Shown here: positions 3,394 through 48,783 of the stretch, piece after piece
Numbering within the stretch: position 1 is the stretch's first letter
How the letters are laid out: each line of letters opens with the position of its first letter
From: an uncultured Prevotellaceae bacterium
GTDB lineage: Bacteria > Bacteroidota > Bacteroidia > Bacteroidales > Bacteroidaceae
Assembly: GCA_946415705.1 (NCBI GenBank)
Contig: CAMKTN010000010.1
Location: 1 to 64,000, forward strand
Reading direction: 5' to 3'
DNA: 64,000 nt
Notes under the pieces: model-generated
Database searches by the model: none
Seen by the model: only the letters and a program-made list of their open reading frames with translations
Told to the model about the DNA's origin: nothing
Position numbers and translations under genes: made by a program

Positions 3394-5025
3394 TCAGTCC
3401 TTCTTGGTGGCGGAGAGGAGTTCGATGGCTTTGGCGACGACGGGGTCGTCGGCGTAGATGATCTGGAAGTATTCGCTGTAGTCCCATAGGTCGCGGGCGA
3501 CGAGACCTTTGAGGATGTGACGCATGTTCTGGAGGGTGCGCTGCAGCTCGTCGTCGTCGCGGGCCTGCAGGCTGTCCTTCTTGGCGGCGTCGGCAAGGAT
3601 GTCATCGAGGACGTTCTGGGGCATTGTGAACGTGGCGCAGAAGTCGTCGAAGCTCTTGTACTGCTTGCTGAGCTGCTTGCGGTGCTCGTCCATATAGTGG
3701 AGGCAGGCATTGTTGATGTAGCTGCGGGCGGTGAGCTCGCGGTAGAGGCGTGTGTAGCGGGTGGTGTCGAGGGGCACGAATATGTCGGGCATAATGCCAC
3801 CGCCGCCATAGACGGTGCGCTGCTGCTTCAAGGTCTTATAGCGCAGCGAATCGGGGAAATGGATGCTGTCGGCATTGGTGAGCTCGCCGCGGTTATAGCG
3901 GTCGATGACATCGCGGGCGTAGCTCTTGGCATCGCCCTTCTCGTAGGGTTTCTGGATGCAACGGCCCGAGGGGGTGTAGTAGCGGGCTACGGTGAGGCGT
4001 ATCATACTGCCGTCCTCAAGGGATATAGGGCGTTGCACGAGGCCTTTGCCGAAGGTACGGCGGCCGATGATGGTGCCGCGGTCGTGGTCTTGGATAGCGC
4101 CGGACAGGATCTCGGCAGCCGAGGCGGAGTGCTCATCCACGAGCACCACGAGGCGCCCGTTGGTGAACAGGCCGCCGCCCGAGGAGCGGTATTCGGCTAC
4201 GCGGATGCCGTCGCGACCGCGTGTGTCCACGATGAGCTCGCCCTTGGGCAACAGCTCGCTGACAATCTCCACGGCCGCACCGAGGTAGCCGCCGCCATTG
4301 CCCTGAAGGTCGAGGATGAGGGACTGCATGCCCTGGCGCTTCAGCTGCTTGATGGCATCGACGACTTCGTCGTGTGTGGTGGCTGAGAAGTTGCTGAAAC
4401 GGATGAGTCCGATGCCGGGTGCCGCGATATAGGCGGCATCTACGGACTTGACGGGGATCTTATCGCGGGTGATGTTGAAGGTCAGCACGTCTTTGATGCC
4501 GCGGCGGACGATGCCCAGCTTCACCTTGGTACCGCGCGGACCGCGCAGACGGCTCATGATGTTCTCGCGGCTCATCTTCACGCCGGCGATGGCGGTGTCG
4601 TTGACGCTGACGATGCGGTCGCCGGCCAGGATGCCTTTCTTCTCAGAGGGGCCGCCAGCCACGGGTTGTATGACGACGAGCGTGTCCTCCAGCATGTTGA
4701 ACTGCACGCCGATGCCGTCGAAGTTACCTTGCAGCGGCTCGTTCATCTTCTTGGTGTCCTCGGCGTTGGTGTAGGTGGAGTGGGGGTCGAGCTTGGAGAG
4801 CATACCCGTGATGGCATCCTCCACCTGGCGGTTGAGGTTGACGGTATCGACATAGAGCTGGTTGATCATCAACGTGCTCTGTATGAGCTTGCGCATCGCC
4901 TGCTCGCGAGGGTCAGAGGAAGGCTGCGCATACAGCCACACCCCCAACCCCTCTCCAAAGGGCGAGGGGAGTAGATAGCTAAATGAAAAAAAGAAGAAAA
5001 AAAAGTATTTAGAAATAGATTTCAT
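3394..5025 (-). CDS. S41 family C-terminal processing peptidase
   Basis: PDZ (GILAGDRIVSVNDTAIAG) and S41 signatures (LILDLQGNGGGYLGAAVEI, VLVDEHSASAAEILSGA); start MKSISKYFFF at 5025. Confidence 0.9.
   Translation of the reverse strand: MKSISKYFFFFFFSFSYLLPSPFGEGLGVWLYAQPSSDPREQAMRKLIQSTLMINQLYVDTVNLNRQVEDAITGMLSKLDPHSTYTNAEDTKKMNEPLQGNFDGIGVQFNMLEDTLVVIQPVAGGPSEKKGILAGDRIVSVNDTAIAGVKMSRENIMSRLRGPRGTKVKLGIVRRGIKDVLTFNITRDKIPVKSVDAAYIAAPGIGLIRFSNFSATTHDEVVDAIKQLKRQGMQSLILDLQGNGGGYLGAAVEIVSELLPKGELIVDTRGRDGIRVAEYRSSGGGLFTNGRLVVLVDEHSASAAEILSGAIQDHDRGTIIGRRTFGKGLVQRPISLEDGSMIRLTVARYYTPSGRCIQKPYEKGDAKSYARDVIDRYNRGELTNADSIHFPDSLRYKTLKQQRTVYGGGGIMPDIFVPLDTTRYTRLYRELTARSYINNACLHYMDEHRKQLSKQYKSFDDFCATFTMPQNVLDDILADAAKKDSLQARDDDELQRTLQNMRHILKGLVARDLWDYSEYFQIIYADDPVVAKAIELLSATKKD
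4936..4971 (+). repeat. GC-rich palindromic repeat copy R1 (+ orientation)
   Basis: CCACACCCCCAACCCCTCTCCAAAGGGCGAGGGGAG; inverted match to R2. Confidence 0.8.
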
Positions 5026-5056
5026 AGTCCTAAGTATACTAAGGCATTTATTCCCC

Positions 5057-5554
5057 TTACTGCCGTAGGCTTCCCCCTCGCCCTTTGGAGAGGGGGGTAG
5101 GGGGTGAGGCTTTATATCCTTCCGGCAGGAAGGCTGTGATGTCCTTGCCGAAGTGGGCGAGTTCGCGGACGAGGGAGCTGGAGAGGGAGGCGTAGCGGGG
5201 ATCTGCGAAGAGGACGACGGTGTCGATGCCTGTGAGCTGGCGGTTGACGTCGGCCATCTGCATCTCGTACTCGAAATCCTTGACGGTGCGCACGCCTCGA
5301 AGGATGGCTTTCGCACCGATGGAATGGGCAAAATCTGTGGTGAGGCCGCTGTAGCTCTCTACGCGCACGCGCGCCTGTTCCTTATATAAATTACGTATGG
5401 CTTGCACACGTTCCTCGACAGGTATCCATCCAGCCTTCTGCTCGTTGATGCCCACCGCAATCACCACCTCGTCGAACAGCTGCAGCGCACGCTCGACCAA
5501 GTCTGCGTGCCCCCTCGTAAACGGATCAAAACTGCCAGGAAAAAGGATGCTCAT
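5057..5554 (-). CDS. coaD: Phosphopantetheine adenylyltransferase
   Basis: FPGSFDPFTRGHADLVERAL, ILRGVRTVKDFEYE, SSSLVRELAHFGKDITAFLP; C-terminus ASPPTPLSKGRGGSLRQ is repeat-derived. Confidence 0.93.
   Translation of the reverse strand: MSILFPGSFDPFTRGHADLVERALQLFDEVVIAVGINEQKAGWIPVEERVQAIRNLYKEQARVRVESYSGLTTDFAHSIGAKAILRGVRTVKDFEYEMQMADVNRQLTGIDTVVLFADPRYASLSSSLVRELAHFGKDITAFLPEGYKASPPTPLSKGRGGSLRQ
5071..5110 (-). repeat. GC-rich palindromic repeat copy R2 (- orientation)
   Basis: TTCCCCCTCGCCCTTTGGAGAGGGGGGTAGGGGGTGAGGC, near reverse complement of R1. Confidence 0.8.
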
Positions 5555-5616
5555 CTCAATTTTCAATTTTCAATTTTCAATTCTCAATTTTCAATTTTCA
5601 ATTTTCAATTGTCAAT
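5554..5616. repeat. AT-rich short tandem repeat (TTTTCAA/TTGAAAA family)
   Basis: Iterated CAATTTTCAATTTTCAATTCTCAATTTT between coaD and parE. Confidence 0.85.
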
Positions 5617-7601
5617 TCCTTATACTCTCGCTCTTCCTCTTCATCCTCTGCCCTATCTTCCTCGATGACGAGGTTGTCGATGATGAAGTTCTGGCGTTCG
5701 AGGGTGTTCTTGCCCATGTAGTACTCCAGCAGCTCCGCTACCTGGTCACTCTTATGCAGCGAGACCTGTTCCAGACGGATGTCTTCGCCGATGAAACCGC
5801 GGAATTCGTCGGGGCTGATCTCACCGAGACCTTTGAAACGCGTGATCTCAGGCTCCGGCCCGAGGGCTTCGATGTTCTGCTGGCGCTCCTCCTCGCTGTA
5901 GCAGTAGCGCGTGATGAAATCGCCTTTGGAATCCGCCTCGCCGATGGCTTCCAAGCGGGCTTTGGAGAGCTTCTTGCGACGCTGGCGCACGCGGAAGAGC
6001 GGCGTCTGGAGGATATAGACATGTCCCTTCTTGATGAGTTCGGGGAAGAACTGCAGGAAGAAGGTGATCATCAGCAGACGGATATGCATGCCATCGACAT
6101 CGGCATCCGTGGCCACGATGACCTTGTTATAGCGCAGGCCGTCGAGGCCGTCCTCGATGTTCAGGGCTGCCTGCAGGAGATTGAACTCCTCGTTCTCATA
6201 GACCACTTTCTTGGTGAGGCCGAAGCAGTTCAAGGGCTTGCCTCGGAGGGAGAAGACGGCCTGTGTCATCACGTCGCGGCTCTTGGTGATGCTACCGCTG
6301 GCGGAGTCGCCCTCGGTGATGAAGATGCAGGAGTCTTCCTTGCGCTCGCCCTTGGGGTCGTTGAAATGTATCTTGCAGTCGCGCAGCTTGCGGTTGTGCA
6401 GGTTGGCTTTCTTGCTGCGCTCGCGGGCGAGCTTGGCCACGCCGGCTATCGCCTTGCGCTCGCGCTCGCTCTCGCCGACCTTCTGCAGCAGCACCTCGGC
6501 CACCTCGGGGTTGCGGCGCAGGTAGTTATCTACCTGCTCCTTCACGAAGTCACCGATGAACTTATCGATGGAGATACCGCCGCCGTTGGGTTCTGTGGAG
6601 AGCGAGCCCAGTTTGATCTTCGTCTGGCTCTCGAACAACGGTTCCTGTATGTTGATGCTGATGGCGGCAACGATGCCGTTGCGGATATCGCTGTAGTCGA
6701 AGTTCTTGCCGGAGAAGTCCTTGATGGTCTCGGCGATGTATTTCTTGAAGGCGCTCTGATGGGTACCGCCCTGGGTGGTGTGCTGGCCGTTGACGAAGCT
6801 GTGGTACTCCTCGCCGTACTGTCCGTTGGTGTGGGTGAAGGCGATTTCGATGTCCTCGCCCTTGAGGTGTACGATGGGGTAGAGGGGCTGCGTGGTCATC
6901 GTGTCGGTGAGCAGGTCCTCAAGGCCGTTGCGGGAGAGGATGCGGCGGCCGTTGAACATGATGGCGAGGCCGGTGTTCAGGTAGGTGTAGTTGCGCAGCA
7001 TCACCTCCACGAACTCATCGCGGAAGAGGTAGTTCTTGAAGAGGCTGTTGTCGGGCTCGAAGACGACGAGGGTGCCGTTCTCGGGGTCAGCGCTCAGGCT
7101 GCTGACCACAGTGGCGGCGCCGCTGTTGGCGGTGCCTTCGTCGGTGACGAGCTGGCCACACTCGAAGGTGGCGCGGCGCGTCTCGCCATCGCGGAAGCTC
7201 TGTGCTACGAAGTGCGAGGAAAGGGCGTTGACGGCTTTCAAGCCGACGCCGTTGAGGCCGACGCTCTTCTTGAAAGCCTTGGAATCGTACTTACCACCCG
7301 TGTTCAACATCGACACGGCCTCCACCAGCTTGCCCAAGGGAATGCCACGGCCGTAGTCGCGCACGGTGACGCGCAGGTGCTCGTCGATGGTCACCTCGAT
7401 GCGCTTGCCGGCGTTCATCTTGAACTCATCGATGGAGTTGTCGATGACTTCCTTCAGCAACACGTAGATGCCGTCCTCGGCGTGGGAGCCGTCGCCCAGC
7501 TTACCGATATACATACCGGGTCGCGTGCGCACGTGCTCCATATCGGAGAGGTGGCGGATATTATCTTCGGAGTAGAGGGTTGGGGTGATAATTTCTTCCA
7601 T
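5598..7601 (-). CDS. parE: DNA topoisomerase IV subunit B (GyrB/ParE family)
   Basis: [60 protein letters not shown] 7601 overlaps the upstream TAA (TAATG). Confidence 0.9.
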
Positions 7602-8755
7602 TAGAGCTCTTTCTGATAGCAGCGGCGGCGTTTGTGGATGGTGCAGTCGAGGTGTGCCCACTGGCCCTGGCTCTTCTCGTTGGACTCCAGCTGCGGGTGC
7701 GTCTCGGCCCATACGAAGCCCATCTTCTGGGCGACCTTGATGATTTGTGCGAAGAGCGGTGCGTTCACGCCCTTGTTCTGGTACTCAGGCAGCACGCCGA
7801 CCAGCAGCAGGTCGATGACGGGTGCCGGCTTGAAGAAGATGGCCTTGGCCAGATGCCACCAGCCGAAGGGGAACAGCTTGCCGTGGGCCTTCTGTAGGGC
7901 ATAGGACAGGGAGCCCATGCCGACGCCCATCGCGATGGGCTCGTTCTGCTCGTTCTCCACGATGGCCAGCAGGCGCATGTCCAGGAACTGCAGGTAGGTG
8001 GTGGCGTACTGCTGGATCTGACGCTCGTTCATCTCGGAGTAGCCATAGAGGTCGGCGTAAGCTTTGTTGATGACGTTGAAGCACTTCTGCACGTACTTGC
8101 CGTCCTCCTCGGCCAGGATCTCCCTGGCATTCTTGAAGTGGCGCATGTGCAGGTTGTAGCGCTTCATGCTCATCTCAGCCACGCGGAAATATTTCTGCAT
8201 GTCGGCCTGGTGTTCGTCGGCCGTCGGGACCATTACCTTGCGCTCCACCCAGTCGATCTCCTTCTCATAGCCTAACTGTTCGATGAGGCGGGGGTAGTAG
8301 GGGAAGTTGTAGATGGTACTCATCGTGGAGAGCTGGTCGAAGCCGTCGATGAGCATGCCCTCGGGGTCCATGTCCGTGAAACCCAGCGGGCCTACGATCT
8401 TCTTCATGCCGCGCTCGCGGCCCCATTGCTCGACGGTGTCCAGCAGCGCCTTCAGTACCTCGATGTCCTCGATGAAGTCAATCCATCCGAAGCGGACGTT
8501 CTTCGCCTGCCAGGTCTTGTTGGCCTTGTGGTTGATGATGGCTGCCACGCGGCCCACGATCTTCTTGTCGCGATATGCCAGGAACAGGTCTGCCTCGCAG
8601 AACTCAAAGGCTGCGTTCTTACGGCGGTTGAACGTGTCGAGCATGTCCTCCAGGAAGTCGGGCACGGCATAGGGATTTCCTTTATAAAGATGATAGTTGA
8701 AACGGATGAAAGCGCGTAATTCGCTTTTACTTTCTACTTTCTTAATGGTAATCAT
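7601..8755 (-). CDS. GNAT-fold N-acetyltransferase family protein
   Basis: 384 aa [35 protein letters not shown]...; conserved Bacteroidales family. Confidence 0.7.
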
Positions 8756-17791: not shown

Positions 17792-19123
17792 ATGAGTAGA
17801 ATTGTTATATTAGGTGCCGCAGAAAGCGGTGTGGGCGCAGCCGTACTCGCCCAGAAAGAAGGTTTTGATGTGTTTGTCACCGACATGGGAAAGATCAAGC
17901 CTCATTACCAGGCGATGCTCGATGAGCACCACATCCCCTGGGAGGAGGGACAGCACACCGAAGCGCAGATCCTGAATGCCGACGAGATCATCAAGAGTCC
18001 CGGTATTCCGGATACGGCACCGATGATTCGCAAGATAAAAGATGCAGGTATTCCCATCATCAGTGAGATAGAATTTGCAGGACGCTATACGCACTCCAAG
18101 ATGATCTGCATCACAGGTTCGAATGGCAAGACGACCACGACGAGCCTGATTTTCCACATCTTCAAAAAGGCAGGCTACGATGTAGGCCTCGCCGGAAATA
18201 TAGGTCATAGCCTGGCGTTGCAGGTGGCTGAGGATCCCCATGAATACTACGTGATAGAGTTGTCCAGCTTTCAGTTGGATAACATGTATGACTTCCGAGC
18301 CAATATCGCCGTGTTGCTCAACATCACGCCCGACCATCTCGACCGCTATGACAACTGCATGCAGAACTACACAGACGCTAAGATGCGTATCCTGCAGAAC
18401 CAGACGAAGGATGATGCCTTCGTATTCTGGAACGACGACCCCATCATTAAGGGTGAGTTGGAGAAGTACCATATCGAGAGCCGGATGTGCCCCTTCAGCA
18501 TCATCGAGAAGGAAGGTATGATAGGCTACATCGCCGATGGAGAGTACCATATCGAGCGTCCCACGCCTTTCAACATGGAGCAGGAGTCGCTGGCCTTGAC
18601 TGGCAAGCACAACATGTACAACTCCCTGGCAGCAGGCATCACGGCAGACCTCAGCGGTATCTCCAACGATGTCATCCGTGAGAGTCTCAGCGACTTCGAG
18701 GGTGTAGAGCATCGTCTGGAGTTCACCTGCAAGGTGCATGGTGTCACTTTCATCAACGACTCCAAGGCCACGAATGTCGATGCCTGCTGGTATGCGTTGG
18801 AGAGCATGACGCAGCCTACCATCCTCATCCTGGGAGGTTTGGACAAGGGCAACGACTACAACCAGATCAAGGAGCTCGTTGCCAAGAAGTGCAAGGGTCT
18901 CGTCTTTCTGGGTGTCGATAATCGAAAGCTGCATGAGTTCTTCGACCCCATGGGCATTCCCACCGCCGAGACACACAGCATGAAAGACTGCATCGCTGCC
19001 TGCTACAAGATGGCCTCCCCGGGCGATACGGTGCTGCTCTCACCCTGTTGTGCCAGCTTTGACTTGTTCAAGAATATGGAAGATCGTGGCGAGCAATTCA
19101 AGAGCCTCGCCAGAGCACTGTGA
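17792..19123 (+). CDS. murD: UDP-N-acetylmuramoylalanine--D-glutamate ligase
   Basis: ITGSNGKTTTTSLIFHIF; VIELSSFQLD; NDSKATNVDACWYALES. Confidence 0.95.
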   Translation: MSRIVILGAAESGVGAAVLAQKEGFDVFVTDMGKIKPHYQAMLDEHHIPWEEGQHTEAQILNADEIIKSPGIPDTAPMIRKIKDAGIPIISEIEFAGRYTHSKMICITGSNGKTTTTSLIFHIFKKAGYDVGLAGNIGHSLALQVAEDPHEYYVIELSSFQLDNMYDFRANIAVLLNITPDHLDRYDNCMQNYTDAKMRILQNQTKDDAFVFWNDDPIIKGELEKYHIESRMCPFSIIEKEGMIGYIADGEYHIERPTPFNMEQESLALTGKHNMYNSLAAGITADLSGISNDVIRESLSDFEGVEHRLEFTCKVHGVTFINDSKATNVDACWYALESMTQPTILILGGLDKGNDYNQIKELVAKKCKGLVFLGVDNRKLHEFFDPMGIPTAETHSMKDCIAACYKMASPGDTVLLSPCCASFDLFKNMEDRGEQFKSLARAL

Positions 19124-19172
19124 AATTGAGAATTGAAAATTGAAAGATTGAGAATTGAAAATTGAAAGATTG
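19121..19172. repeat. AT-rich short tandem repeat (GAATTGAAAATTGAAAGATT family)
   Basis: Two copies of ATTGAGAATTGAAAATTGAAAG between murD and ftsW. Confidence 0.85.
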
Positions 19173-38422: not shown

Positions 38423-41400
38423 TTACTTCACCACCACCTTTCTCCCATCACGGATATAGACGCCCTTGGCGGGCGGTGTGGAGAGTTGGCGGCCGGAAAG
38501 ATCAAAGCATTTACTATTTAAAGATTTATTATTTACGATTGGATCTGACGGAATATCGCGGACGGCGGTATCGTCAAGGGGCAGGGTGAGGGTGGCGGTG
38601 TATTGCTCCTCGCTGTTCTCCACGACGAGTGTGTAGGTGCCTGCTGGGTACTTCGTCAGGTCGGTGTTGAGGGCGATGGTGCTGTTTGTCTGCACATCCT
38701 TGCGATAGACCTCATTGTCTGCGGCATCTCTCAGCGTAACGGTATAAGTTCCTGACAGGATCTTGAGATTCACGAAGAGCTCATGAGCCGAATATTCACC
38801 CGTCAGGTTCTCCTCATCAGTTTCGTTCGCCGTCCTCTCGCGTGCTGGTGCCTTCGGCCTCGGTTTCTTGATGTGGGTGAAATCCAGCCACTGCCTCTTC
38901 ACCTCAGCCCCATCGGGCGGGGTGACGCCATCGATGAGATAGGGATTATAGTAGAGAATCTCATCGCCGACGGTGCAAGACATCAAATCATCATAAAATC
39001 CGTCCCATCCTGAGAACATGATATTTGCGAAAGGAGTTCCTGAGCCCACGCCTTCCAGCCAGCGGTTAGGATCATCATGATTGTACTTGTTGATGAATGT
39101 CTGGGTTTTGTTGTCCCATTCCGGTTCTTCTACATCAACATACGTGACACCTCCCTTGAAGAGTTCATCGTTTATATACTCCCTTTTGGAAATGATACAT
39201 GATACCGTGGGATATTGGTCTGCTCCGACTCCCCCATACACCTGAATAGTGTCGCCAATGTTGGACTCGAAGTCATAAAGAAGCTCGAAATCTTGTTTGT
39301 TGGGGAAGACACAGAATACTTTGCGCCCTTCTTCGTAAAATGCGCCTACATACTCTGACCAAGGTTCAGGATTACCCCATTGCTCATTGGCCTCGTGGCG
39401 GCATCTCATCTTAAGACAGACTTTTCCTCCGATGGTAATGGAATCACCATCGAAATAGTAATAATCCAGTTTCTGTGCCGTGTTGCCAGCCCCTGGGAAC
39501 CATCCCACTTTCCACACTTTCCCCTCCTCGATGAAGGGACGATAAAACGTTCCCCTGACGGCAACCGGGTGTTCGCCACGCTCATCCACAGCAATATATT
39601 TGTTTCCTGCCTCGAAGAAGGGGAAGGATAAGTCAACGTGATAGGGGCTCTTGCAGGTAGTGACCTCTGCTGGATAATCTAACTGGAGGTATAGCTTATA
39701 AGCAGAATTGTCTTCTGTACGTTCACTTCTACAATATATGTAAAGATCACCACCACAATGAAGCCACATAATGCCAGAAACATGAAGCACATACGCATCG
39801 TGCACGGGGTCAGGGACGAGTTCATAGTGCAAATCGTTTTCATCGAAGGAATGTGTTCTCGCATAGTCCTGATCTTCCTTTCCCCTTGCTAAGTCCTGTC
39901 CCCACCAGCCATTGGAGGGTAGGCCAAAGGTAAAGGGCCAATAGCTTGAGCCTGACACATAGGCCAGTTGATAGCTCCACGAATTCGGGGCACTATGCGA
40001 GAATAATCCGTCTAAGGGGTTCATCTCACTACCGATTCCCTCAATCCATCGACCTTTAGCTAGTACAGAAAGTAAGCTTGTCTTATCTTTCCCCTGGAAG
40101 TTGATGACTTTCAGAGAGTCTCCATATACCATGAGGTAATCAATCTTAGTGACTTCGCAATGTTCAAAATCGCCGTATTCCGGCTCAAACCTATCGCCCA
40201 CCTTGAGCGAGAAGTCATAGGTAAGAACTTCCTTGTCTTCCTCCTCGTTGTACATATAGACACGTTGGTTCTCTTCACGGAACCAGCCGAGAGGTTTATC
40301 ATTTCCATCTTGTGTTCTGGCACACAGTTGTTCATAGCTGTGCCCGTTTCTTACGAGCGCGCTTTCATCATCTGAGAAGTAGTAATCGGTTACAGTGTGC
40401 TGCGTACCCAAACTAAATCCATGTACACACCAGTGTTTCCCCCGTTCAACGAAAGGATGATAGGTAGCGTCCTCGGGTTGGGGGTAATCGACCGAGAAGA
40501 TTTCATTAGGACCCTCCATACGGTAATTGACAGATAGTGGCGATGGCACGAAGGATTTGAACATATCGCCTGTAAAGTCGATTTGCAGGGGCTCGTTATT
40601 AAGGTAGAGGGTAAATACATCTTTTACATCGTGGAGGAAAAACGTGATGTTTGTCCCGTCTGTCTCCAGCCAGATGTTTGACGCTTCACCATCGTAGCCG
40701 TCCTTCCCTTCATAATGCAGGGGTATGGCGGTGCGAGTGGTAACGGGGACACTCGTCTCATCGCCGTAGAGATAGACACCATCTTCAATGCATGAGACCA
40801 ATTCGCCATAGCCTCCAAGGACCGTACCGCCATCGCTCGGACCGAACAGATGACACTTGAAAAAGTCCTGGGTGCAGCCTATGCCTTCAATCCATAAGAA
40901 TAGCATGTGCACACTTGTCGGCCCGATCAGCCATTCAAGACAGTTCAATGTGATGCCGTTGATGTCCCTGGTGGACGGACTTTTATAAGGCCGAGCGTCA
41001 AGGCCGTATGTCAGTTGCACCCTCTCCGTCAGCTCCAGATCATAATAGAATCTTTCCGTCACGCTATCTGCCGGCACGATGTATGCCCGACAGCCCTCAT
41101 CGCGCAGTGCTGCCGTATAGATATTGTACTTGTCATACTGCATATATAGCTTCTTGTAAGTCTTTTCATGGATGGTCGTGTCACCTTTTACAATATAGCT
41201 GTAGTAGTGATCAAGAACGCCATTATTCAGATATTCGCGCATCTTGAAGTTCCACACCTTCCCCTCTTTGGCCAAGGGATGATAGGTAGCGTCCTCGGGG
41301 TCAGTTAGCTGCTGAATCCAGTCTATAGCGTCTTTATCATATAACAGATAACGGTCGCCGACATGGCAGTCAATCATTTTACCATACCATCCAAGGTTTA

Positions 41401-41983
41401 TAGCACCACCATTCATCAGCGGTGACGTTTTGTGACCTACTCCCTCAATCCATTGGACGGGATAAGAGTCATAAGGTTTTTCTACGCCAGACGTCTTAGA
41501 CTCATAGTTGACTTCATCTTGATCATATAGTGTCAGAACGGGAGGTCCTTTTGTTTCATCTCTCTTACCCATAATAAAATGATACTGGGAGGAATGATTG
41601 CCATAGAAAGGTATATTGGCATAGTTCACAACAACACTTTCCCCTTCCTGCGCACCAAAGTCATACAATAACTTGAAGTCCGTGGTTCCGTCCTGACAGA
41701 AATAGACCTTCCTATTCTCCTCGTAGAGAGCCATCAGGTAGCCATTCATAGGTTTAAACTCATCGTTTTGGAAATAGGGTTTCTCCTCCACCATCATCTT
41801 CTTACAGACATGACCGCTGATAAGTGTGTCACCTTTCAGTTCAAACGTCTGGGTATAGAAGACCTCCTTACGTCCGAGGTTCATAGCAACAACCCACACT
41901 TTCCCCTCCTCGACAAAGGGATGATAGGCCTTGACACCGAGAGATGGAATCAACAGGCATAGAATGGTAAGCAGTCGTTTCAT
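38423..41983 (-). CDS. 1186-aa secreted repeat protein with DUF3244-like region and type IX secretion C-terminal domain
   Basis: Signal peptide; recurring YHPFVEEGKVW, YHPLAKEGKVW, YHPFVERGKHW, YRPFIEEGKVW and WIEGVG motifs; C-term CFDLSGRQLSTPPAKGVYIRDGRKVVVK. Confidence 0.8.
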   Translation of the reverse strand: MKRLLTILCLLIPSLGVKAYHPFVEEGKVWVVAMNLGRKEVFYTQTFELKGDTLISGHVCKKMMVEEKPYFQNDEFKPMNGYLMALYEENRKVYFCQDGTTDFKLLYDFGAQEGESVVVNYANIPFYGNHSSQYHFIMGKRDETKGPPVLTLYDQDEVNYESKTSGVEKPYDSYPVQWIEGVGHKTSPLMNGGAINLGWYGKMIDCHVGDRYLLYDKDAIDWIQQLTDPEDATYHPLAKEGKVWNFKMREYLNNGVLDHYYSYIVKGDTTIHEKTYKKLYMQYDKYNIYTAALRDEGCRAYIVPADSVTERFYYDLELTERVQLTYGLDARPYKSPSTRDINGITLNCLEWLIGPTSVHMLFLWIEGIGCTQDFFKCHLFGPSDGGTVLGGYGELVSCIEDGVYLYGDETSVPVTTRTAIPLHYEGKDGYDGEASNIWLETDGTNITFFLHDVKDVFTLYLNNEPLQIDFTGDMFKSFVPSPLSVNYRMEGPNEIFSVDYPQPEDATYHPFVERGKHWCVHGFSLGTQHTVTDYYFSDDESALVRNGHSYEQLCARTQDGNDKPLGWFREENQRVYMYNEEEDKEVLTYDFSLKVGDRFEPEYGDFEHCEVTKIDYLMVYGDSLKVINFQGKDKTSLLSVLAKGRWIEGIGSEMNPLDGLFSHSAPNSWSYQLAYVSGSSYWPFTFGLPSNGWWGQDLARGKEDQDYARTHSFDENDLHYELVPDPVHDAYVLHVSGIMWLHCGGDLYIYCRSERTEDNSAYKLYLQLDYPAEVTTCKSPYHVDLSFPFFEAGNKYIAVDERGEHPVAVRGTFYRPFIEEGKVWKVGWFPGAGNTAQKLDYYYFDGDSITIGGKVCLKMRCRHEANEQWGNPEPWSEYVGAFYEEGRKVFCVFPNKQDFELLYDFESNIGDTIQVYGGVGADQYPTVSCIISKREYINDELFKGGVTYVDVEEPEWDNKTQTFINKYNHDDPNRWLEGVGSGTPFANIMFSGWDGFYDDLMSCTVGDEILYYNPYLIDGVTPPDGAEVKRQWLDFTHIKKPRPKAPARERTANETDEENLTGEYSAHELFVNLKILSGTYTVTLRDAADNEVYRKDVQTNSTIALNTDLTKYPAGTYTLVVENSEEQYTATLTLPLDDTAVRDIPSDPIVNNKSLNSKCFDLSGRQLSTPPAKGVYIRDGRKVVVK

Positions 41984-43576: not shown

Positions 43577-46219
43577 TTATTTCCTTCTCCATACCCCCCA
43601 CCCGATGAGTGCGAGTGCGAGGAGGGCGAGGGCGATGAGGGCGGTGTTGGCGATGGCCTCGGTGGTGTGGAGGCTCTGCGGGTCGAAGCGGAAGGCAATG
43701 TGATGCTTGCCGGCGGGAATGACGACGGCGCGCAGGACGTAGTCGGCACGCAGGATCTGGGCGGGCTCACCGTCGATGGTGCACTGCCAGCCGGGGTAGT
43801 AGATGTCGGAGAAGACGGCCAAGCGCTCTCGGTCGGTCTCGGCCTCGAAGATGAGGGCGTTGGCTTCGTAATGGAGAAGACCCACCCCGGCCCTCCCTTG
43901 TAGGGAGGGAGTGGTTGCCTTACTAGAGTCGGCATCGTTGCCAGCGGTCAGCGTGTCTGCACTACCTCCGGCGCTAATCAATGCGTCGGGGAGTTGGTCG
44001 CGGAAGCGGACATCGACGGCGGCGGTGTGGCGGGGATTGATGGAGGAGAGGAGGGAGAGCTCTTCGTCGGCATTGGCGACGAGGAACACGTTATCGACAA
44101 ACCAGGCGTTGCCCATGGCCCACGGGTTCTGCACGGGCACGGTCTCGCCGCCCTGCAGGGGCAGGATGGCGTACTTGGTGTTGAGCATATTGAGCACGGG
44201 GAAGAGGCTGTCGCCGGCGACGCTGTCGAGGCGTCCGTTGGTCTCGGCGACGGCTTTGTAGAGGGTGGCGAGCTGCGGCTGGATGTGGGCTTCGATGAGC
44301 TCCTGGTAGCGGCGCAGCTTGGCGGCGTGGTAGCCGCCGATGCTCTTGTGCCAGTAGGAGGTGGTGTTGTCGTTGAAGGTGTTCACGGCGAGGTTCACGA
44401 CGCGGTAGTAGAGGTCGCTGTCCTGCAGGATGGCCTCGTCGGCGGGTGTCTTCTGGAAGAACTGCTGTGCGGGCTGGGGCTTGGAGAACATGGCGTCGTT
44501 GAGGTAGCGCTTGTTGACATCCCACAGGTCGGCGGTGCAGAGCACGAGGAGACAAAGGACCATCGCCCACGCCTTGATCTTCTTAAAATAATACGCGAGG
44601 AGCACGGCGCAGCCCACGAGGATGATGAGCAGCGAGCGGCCGGCATCGGCGGTGAAGACAGCGCGACGCATATCGTTCAGGTTGCGCAGGATGTCGGCCA
44701 ACATCTCAGCAGGGATATAGCCAGCCTGCACGGCGTTGTTCAGCATCTCAGCCTCGGAACTGCTGACGTAGTTGCCGAAGAAGACGTCGGGAACTAGGTA
44801 AAAGAGTAAGCATACTCCTCCTGTCAGCGCCAGGGAAATGAAGAATTGATAATTGAAAATTGAAAATTGAGAATTGCTTTCAACCTCTTTTACCACCTCA
44901 CGCAGTGCGAGCATCGCGAGCAGGGGGATGGTGAACTCGGCGATGACGAGGATGGAGGCGACGGTGCGGAACTTGTCGTACATGGGGACATAGTCCAGCC
45001 ACAGGTCGGTCCACGGCATGAAGTTCTTACCCCATGCGAGGGTGATGCTGAGGACGGTGGCGATGAAAAGCGCCCATTTCATCGGACCCTTGACGATGAA
45101 GAGGCCGAGGATGAAGAGGAACATTACGAAGGCGCCGACATAGACGGGTCCGCTGGTGCCGGGCTGCTCGCCCCAGTACTGCCCGAGGCTCTGATAGACG
45201 GGCATATACGTCTGGTTGGCCTTGGCCATCGCCGTCTTGCTCTGCGTGAGGGGTTGGCTGGCGCCGCCCTTGACGTTGGGGATGAGCAGCGACCATGTCT
45301 CGCCAATGCCGTAGCTCCAGGCTGTGATGTAGCTGCGCTCCAGGCCGCTGCTGGTCTGGTCGGCGGGGTCTGCTGTCTTCTGTGTCAGCTCGCTCTTCCC
45401 GCGCATCGACTCCTTGGAGTACTCCCAGGTGTGGAAGAGGTTGGAGGCGTTGATGGCGAGGCCGATGAGGCAGCCGAGGGCGAAGACGCACGAGCTTTTA
45501 GCCCACTCGCGCCACTGGCGCGGTTGGGCTAAAAGCTCTGCCAGCGCCATCAGGGCGATGACGAAGGCGAAGTAGTAGGTCATCTGTACGTGGTTGGAGA
45601 GGATCTGCAGGGCCATGAAGAGGGCGGTGACGAGGAGTCCCCAGCCGTAGCGGCCGCGGTAGCAGAGCACCATGCCGGCGATGGTGGGCGGGATGTAGGC
45701 CAGCGTGTAGAACTTCCAGATGTGGCCTGCACCTATTATAATAAAGTAGTAGCTGGAGAAGGCCCATAGGACGGCGCCGAGGGCTGCCATCCACGCCTTG
45801 AAGTCGAAGGCGCGCAGGAGGATGTAGAAGCCCAGGAGCATGATGAACACCAGTACGACATAGTCGGGCAATCCGAGCTTATAGACTTTCTCGACCTTCG
45901 CGAGCTTCTCGGTGGAGGGGTAGGAGGGTGCCATCTGGTAGGTGGGCATACCTGAGAAGAGCGTGTTGGTCCAGCGTGTGCGCTCGCCGTCGTGGCTCTT
46001 GCGATAGGCCTCCATCTCCGAGGATGCGCCGGCACCGCCGCTGTGGTCATGGCCTGTCAGCACCAGCCCTTCGGAGACCGGCTTGGCGAAGTAGGCGAAG
46101 GAGAGGGCTACGAAGAAGAGGGTGGAGAGAAGGTCGGGGAGGAGGCGGACCCACCCCCTGCCCTCCCTTGTAGGGAGGGAGCGGTTACTATTTGACTGGT
46201 TGTTATTGCTCATGGCCAT
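43577..46219 (-). CDS. YfhO family membrane protein with several repeat-derived in-frame segments
   Basis: FVALSFAYFAKPVSEGLVLTGHDHSGGAGASSEMEAYR...; polytopic; VFSDIYYPGWQCTIDGEPA. Confidence 0.85.
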   Translation of the reverse strand: MAMSNNNQSNSNRSLPTREGRGWVRLLPDLLSTLFFVALSFAYFAKPVSEGLVLTGHDHSGGAGASSEMEAYRKSHDGERTRWTNTLFSGMPTYQMAPSYPSTEKLAKVEKVYKLGLPDYVVLVFIMLLGFYILLRAFDFKAWMAALGAVLWAFSSYYFIIIGAGHIWKFYTLAYIPPTIAGMVLCYRGRYGWGLLVTALFMALQILSNHVQMTYYFAFVIALMALAELLAQPRQWREWAKSSCVFALGCLIGLAINASNLFHTWEYSKESMRGKSELTQKTADPADQTSSGLERSYITAWSYGIGETWSLLIPNVKGGASQPLTQSKTAMAKANQTYMPVYQSLGQYWGEQPGTSGPVYVGAFVMFLFILGLFIVKGPMKWALFIATVLSITLAWGKNFMPWTDLWLDYVPMYDKFRTVASILVIAEFTIPLLAMLALREVVKEVESNSQFSIFNYQFFISLALTGGVCLLFYLVPDVFFGNYVSSSEAEMLNNAVQAGYIPAEMLADILRNLNDMRRAVFTADAGRSLLIILVGCAVLLAYYFKKIKAWAMVLCLLVLCTADLWDVNKRYLNDAMFSKPQPAQQFFQKTPADEAILQDSDLYYRVVNLAVNTFNDNTTSYWHKSIGGYHAAKLRRYQELIEAHIQPQLATLYKAVAETNGRLDSVAGDSLFPVLNMLNTKYAILPLQGGETVPVQNPWAMGNAWFVDNVFLVANADEELSLLSSINPRHTAAVDVRFRDQLPDALISAGGSADTLTAGNDADSSKATTPSLQGRAGVGLLHYEANALIFEAETDRERLAVFSDIYYPGWQCTIDGEPAQILRADYVLRAVVIPAGKHHIAFRFDPQSLHTTEAIANTALIALALLALALIGWGVWRRK
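43880..43917 (+). repeat. GC-rich palindromic repeat copy R3 (+ orientation, inside yfhO)
   Basis: ACCCACCCCGGCCCTCCCTTGTAGGGAGGGAGTGGTTG. Confidence 0.85.
44845..44878. repeat. TTGAAAA-type AT repeat inside yfhO
   Basis: GAATTGATAATTGAAAATTGAAAATTGAGAATTG, translated as [11 protein letters not shown]. Confidence 0.8.
45492..45538. repeat. 47-nt near-perfect palindrome inside yfhO
   Basis: GAGCTTTTAGCCCA CT CGCGCCA C TGGCGCG GT TGGGCTAAAAGCTC. Confidence 0.9.
46149..46188 (+). repeat. GC-rich palindromic repeat copy R4 (+ orientation, yfhO 5' end)
   Basis: ACCCACCCCCTGCCCTCCCTTGTAGGGAGGGAGCGGTTAC. Confidence 0.85.
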
Positions 46220-46317: not shown

Positions 46318-46368
46318 GTGACCACTCCCTCCCTCACAGGGAGGGTGAGGGGAGGGCCGGGAATGGGT
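46318..46368 (-). repeat. GC-rich palindromic repeat copy R5 (- orientation)
   Basis: TGACCACTCCCTCCCTCACAGGGAGGGTGAGGGGAGGGCCGGGAATGGGT, inverted relative to R4. Confidence 0.8.
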
Positions 46369-46376
46369 AGCGTTTC

Positions 46377-48739: not shown

Positions 48740-48783
48740 ACCCTCCCCCCTGCCCCTCCCTTGCAGGGCGGGGAGTGATTACC
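48740..48783 (+). repeat. GC-rich palindromic repeat copy R6 (+ orientation)
   Basis: ACCCTCCCCCCTGCCCCTCCCTTGCAGGGCGGGGAGTGATTACC. Confidence 0.85.

Follow-up and report, generated by a model that had tools for sequence, protein, structure and literature searches.

A yfhO-family gene of a rumen Bacteroidota bacterium carries in-frame, probably translated copies of dispersed DNA repeats

Introduction

How can a gene for a membrane protein contain several copies of dispersed repeat DNA and still be read from end to end? The question is raised by a yfhO gene in a stretch of 64,000 nucleotides (hereafter the window) from a rumen Bacteroidota bacterium, the closest named relatives of which are uncultured Prevotellaceae/Bacteroidaceae genomes, many of them ruminant-derived. 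The best-known examples of in-frame coding repeats come from Rickettsia, and N-terminal REPs have so far been attributed largely to misannotated starts. Our search of the open-access literature for coding repeats of heptamer or palindromic type in Prevotella/Bacteroidetes found no earlier description. Here we argue that three segments of yfhO, two derived from a palindrome and one from a heptamer, are very probably copies of dispersed repeats that lie in frame and are translated within the protein. The argument is built from genomic sequence: the source genome is a draft of 2.49 Mb in 76 contigs, 84% complete, and the genomes closely compared with it are draft MAGs.

Repeat-derived segments in an open yfhO frame

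The yfhO coding sequence (43577..46219, minus strand) specifies an 880-amino-acid member of the YfhO family of membrane proteins, which has homologues in 60 of 61 genomes of the genus, and Pfam places a PF09586 match in the C-terminal domain (residues 783-855, E=9e-12). The frame is intact across four repeat- or hairpin-derived segments, with all 880 codons open and TTPSLQGRAGVGLLHYE among the peptides present in the translation. The window holds 4 sites of the palindrome pattern and 13 of the heptamer, whereas dinucleotide-preserving shuffles give an expectation of 0. The central claim of the original prediction, an intact yfhO with repeat-derived peptides in frame, is borne out by the open codons, the peptides themselves and the absence of the patterns from shuffled sequence.

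The first palindromic copy, R4 (46155..46186, minus strand), lies in frame at residues 12-24 (NRSLPTREGRGWV) and forms the right arm of an inverted pair, the left arm of which (46327..46370, plus strand; palindrome core 46327-46345) is situated upstream of the yfhO start codon. The second, R3 (43885..43916, minus strand), is in frame near residue 770 (TTPSLQGRAGVG). Between them, a TTGAAAA/TTTTCAA heptamer array (44839..44878, minus strand) translates as a 13-residue peptide; it is used in its sole open orientation, in which all three frames are open, as against none of the three in the other. The heptamer is not a palindrome, does not fold, and belongs to a family unrelated to that of R3 and R4. 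A near-perfect hairpin within the gene (45492..45538, minus strand; fold of -40.2 kcal/mol, z -8.6) accounts for a further peptide, ELLAQPRQWREWAKSS. The WREWAKSS half of this hairpin is native, being identical in L098, the yfhO locus of the near-identical strain represented by genome G061, and the second half, which occupies the position of a full-length repeat element in L098, is an inverted copy of the first. The hairpin would be most simply read as a local inverted duplication. The three repeat segments originally proposed are present, but R3 and R4 turn out to be one 32-bp repeat, 94% identical and read in two frames, and the hairpin at 45492-45538 had been overlooked as a fourth insert.

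The window copies of the palindrome other than R3 and R4, namely those at 46327 and 48754 (48754..48772, plus strand, 1 mismatch), are outside called genes, as are heptamer arrays at 5554-5615 and 19119-19172 except for slight overlap with ORF ends. As a separate observation, a 33-bp direct repeat occurs in four copies at 39512-41926 of the window, within a 1186-amino-acid ORF (38423-41983).

Genome-wide distribution of the repeats

Allowing at most one mismatch, the palindrome (CTCCCTNNNAGGGAGGG) has 97 sites in the genome and the heptamer (TTTTCAATTTTCAATT) 458 matches, overlapping ones counted, and the reversed-pattern controls return 0 for both. Palindrome hairpins fold at -21 to -23 kcal/mol, and 23 inverted doublets were found with 54-151 bp between the palindromes; paired inverted arms occur at many sites, some of them inside genes. 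In the 28 regions fetched around sites, which furnish the 68 copies examined and the intragenic fractions given here, 42 of the 68 lie in long ORFs. Because the palindrome is so often intragenic across the genome, the view that these repeats are "intergenic elsewhere" holds for this window only. Nor is yfhO exceptional, since dozens of genes carry the palindrome in frame, in most cases N-terminally.

Two further genes deserve mention in their own right. A leuA-like gene (L082, 4049-5761) contains, besides an N-terminal arm, an entire in-frame inverted doublet (approximately residues 172-208), and a methionyl-tRNA synthetase-like gene of G041 (L069, 5573-5644) has an N-terminal insert nearly as in yfhO (MKENNQSNSNCSLPKREGKGWA).

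Structural setting and variation among relatives

In an AlphaFold model of YfhO (mean pLDDT 80, pTM 0.82), residues 1-19 and 751-777 have pLDDT below 50, and R3 falls inside the latter segment, modelled as a disordered loop. The heptamer segment sits at a turn (448-456) between helices 419-447 and 457-475 and continues into the second of these, and the hairpin-site insert is at a break between helices 218-231 and 233-256. On this model, each of the four insert sites is a terminus, a loop or a helix junction.

These same sites vary between close relatives. At the DNA level, L098 matches the window with 97-100% identity along most of yfhO; elsewhere in the aligned window, identity is mostly 93-98.7%. 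It retains the N-terminal insert (ATGAGCAATAACAACCAGTCAAATAGTAACCGCTCCCTC...), with a different palindrome at the upstream left-arm site. At 45515-45538 it has a paired GC-rich element in place of the hairpin half seen in the window; at 44792-44877, an inverted array of another heptamer; and at 43871-43964, another paired element unrelated to R3. In L099, which is about 80-90% identical, the three sites other than the N-terminal one are empty. More distant relatives hold many other repeats at the same four places, including inverted GACGAAT arrays (L063, L067) and full inverted doublets (L064, L066), and one yfhO loop element of the relative G015 has 53 matches in G015's own genome. Across 44 yfhO sequences of the genus, 29 of 175 loop segments bear hairpin or heptamer signatures, versus 17 of 665 control windows (P=1.6e-10), by a local-hairpin criterion, adopted because a strict hairpin criterion missed 8-bp stems.

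The expectation that repeat segments would appear as lineage-specific loop insertions is therefore matched in yfhO homologues, where sites are empty or occupied by other repeats in close relatives. It applies to three of the four sites, which differ in L098 and are empty in L099; the N-terminal insert is common to L098 and several species, and so is not a recent insertion. SNP clusters flank two of the loops swapped between the window and L098, which suggests, at the level of sequence, exchange by short-tract recombination; the differences from L098 could thus be due to recombination between strains as opposed to new insertion.

Other parts of the window also differ from G061. At 4930-5117, inside ORF 3394-5331, a palindromic doublet stands against a heptamer array; at 5510-5614 the swap is the reverse; and at 7578-7631 the window has no element where G061 has a doublet.

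Palindrome arms at gene starts

Among the 68 palindrome copies, 28 lie in frame within the first 40 codons, although some of the ORF calls among these 28 may be spurious (e.g., one at L038 and one at L081). Repeat-derived N-termini are predicted on more than 20 proteins besides YfhO, many of them housekeeping enzymes, as exemplified by gcvPA (MSTPSQKLSTPLPTREGQGGGS-AFKYFPHTEED). All 28 gene-start arms have one polarity (P=7e-9), the opposite polarity being open in two of three frames. Arms of 39 and 36 bp both maintain the TP...GGGS phase, which is used by 21 of the 28; a third open phase (PPYKGG) is used by none. The arms have at least four readings (TPLPTREGQGGGS, TPSLQGRAGGGS, SLPTREGGGRV, LPSLQGRGRGVGL), and the repeat-encoded peptides predicted in carrier proteins include STPLPTREGQGGGS. 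In three apparently secreted proteins (L081, L088, L091), the arm is placed behind a stretch resembling a signal peptide.

Might these N-terminal copies simply belong to 5′ untranslated regions, with the true starts downstream? Precisely this caution has been raised for N-terminal REPs (Di Nocera et al., 2013, PMC3733652). However, in several tagged genes the stretch from the arm to the conserved domain is free of ATG, GTG and TTG. In proC, etfA, ddl, gcvPA, ispH and a chromate transporter, the Pfam domain begins about 1-3 residues past the arm without another start codon ahead of the domain, so that the tag would have to be translated if these genes work, which answers the caution for them. 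In yfhO itself, no alternative start occurs until 28 codons downstream, past the first helix, and misannotation is inapplicable to R3 or the heptamer, both being internal. Start-codon misannotation is accordingly very improbable as an explanation.

The ddl gene displays the variability between genomes directly. In seven close relatives the site is empty and the protein starts MEKKxVIAIVCGG or similar, whereas in G000, G055, G040 and G015 an arm follows the start. In G000, the left arm comes directly after the EKWR of the upstream gene, which is terminated by a TAG in the hairpin loop.

It is conceivable that what moves, or is converted, between gene junctions is a whole start unit, in which an inverted pair contributes a left-arm stop, an AT-rich leader, a start codon and a right-arm N-terminal tag. 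One subfamily fits this description, sharing leader, start (ATGTCGAATAAT) and an MSNNNESTRQP-like tag among unrelated genes in three species (hisC, hisB, truB-like, cdsA-like, folD-like and efflux genes), and the polarity that such a unit requires is found in 28 of 28 arms; in ddl, moreover, the left arm adjoins the last shared codons of the upstream gene and provides its stop. Yet an all-against-all comparison shows the interiors of most other pairs to be non-homologous beyond about 20 bp beside the arms, the MEK at the start of ddl is similar to the native MEKK, and ddl of G015 and G040 has the right arm without the left. With a shared leader and start limited to one subfamily and most pair interiors differing, a mobile start cassette is kept only as a rival, possible but rather doubtful; the broader proposition, of a start cassette over many housekeeping genes of one Bacteroidota genus that can be swapped with unrelated repeats at the same sites, we regard with equal reserve. 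Within the subfamily (L089, 2974-9062; L245-L255), the leader is made up of arrayed 8-bp CGTAATAA-like units.

Invertible switches are common in Bacteroidota, and a leader and start codon flanked by nearly perfect inverted arms could in principle be flipped by a recombinase as a phase-variable promoter or start-codon switch. Many of the tagged genes are housekeeping genes, however, and single arms and loop inserts would be left unaccounted for, making such a switch highly unlikely. In comparison with the near-identical strain, every orthologous paired site spanned by one alignment has its interior in the same orientation, with 0 flipped, and the inversion switch was rejected. The reading of the yfhO segments as translated copies of dispersed repeats is the one that we carry forward.

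Comparison with known repeat families

The palindromic elements of Rickettsia (RPEs; Ogata et al., 2000, 2002, as reviewed in PMC10969869) are the parallel proposed for yfhO at the outset. Like them, the elements described here are dispersed palindromic repeats (97 sites) that occur in frame in unrelated genes, conserved ones included (42 of 68 copies in ORFs, with empty homologues for yfhO and ddl), and that are expected to be tolerable in a folded protein. RPEs, by contrast, are about 150 bp in length with one conserved peptide per family, whereas the present arms measure about 36-39 bp, are often paired around a start codon, are concentrated at N-termini and are read in several frames with at least four readings; the host, too, belongs to an unrelated phylum. 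As the TTGAAAA heptamer is neither palindromic nor folding, the analogy is restricted to R3 and R4, as in-frame inserts at a loop and a terminus.

The resemblance to REPs and REPINs is likewise partial. REPs are found inside ORFs, and some provide stops to flanking ORFs (Di Nocera et al., 2013, PMC3733652); the present elements share with them the short GC-rich hairpins, the inverted doublets (23 here), the presence of some copies in ORFs and the donation of stops to flanking ORFs. In the N-terminal cases, the copies here appear to lie within the translated region, not upstream of it. Could these palindromes be classical REPs moved by a Y1 (RAYT) transposase? Their REP-like hairpin size, high copy number and REPIN-like inverted doublets would be compatible with this. 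However, a profile search for Y1_Tnp (PF01797) gave no match over the cut-off in this 84% complete genome; among genomes of the genus, Y1_Tnp has a patchy distribution (17 of 61) and is missing from the copy-rich G015 and G018; and the arm ends are GACCC/GGGTC, not the GTAG/CGTC tags of known REPs. A classical REP/RAYT system is thus unlikely, if less so than misannotation or an invertible switch. In the PF01797 search of this genome and 60 relatives, RAYT as the mover was left unsupported.

MITEs such as BOX, ERIC and BrickBuilt are similar in being small, non-autonomous and sometimes fused to ORFs, with the inverted ends that are also present here, and they differ in that the interior of the present elements is mostly unconserved and that neither a parent transposon nor a target-site duplication was noticed for these. 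By analogy, our elements may work like RPEs and intragenic REPs, and we claim membership in neither.

Proposed mechanism and significance

A plausible course of events can be outlined. The palindromic arms would spread as inverted pairs in a REP- or MITE-like manner and the heptamers as arrays, and both would enter the edges and loops of genes, where they may be tolerated because they encode hydrophilic or flexible peptides on a coding strand free of stops. Inserts that break the fold or the frame would be lost, so that survivors would gather at N-termini, behind signal peptides and in surface loops, and short-tract recombination between strains would swap the inserts at these sites. Judged from sequence, the repeat peptides are most likely tolerated linkers that serve no dedicated function.

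The source organism is a rumen Bacteroidota bacterium in which close strains vary in the repeat that occupies each site, as do relatives. The finding would add a gut lineage in which repeats appear to serve as the N-termini of many proteins and in which loop inserts appear to be exchanged between nearly identical strains. Annotation and structure pipelines should expect such repeat segments, and this large, diverse group, with its many genomes, offers a place to test what selfish DNA contributes to protein evolution.
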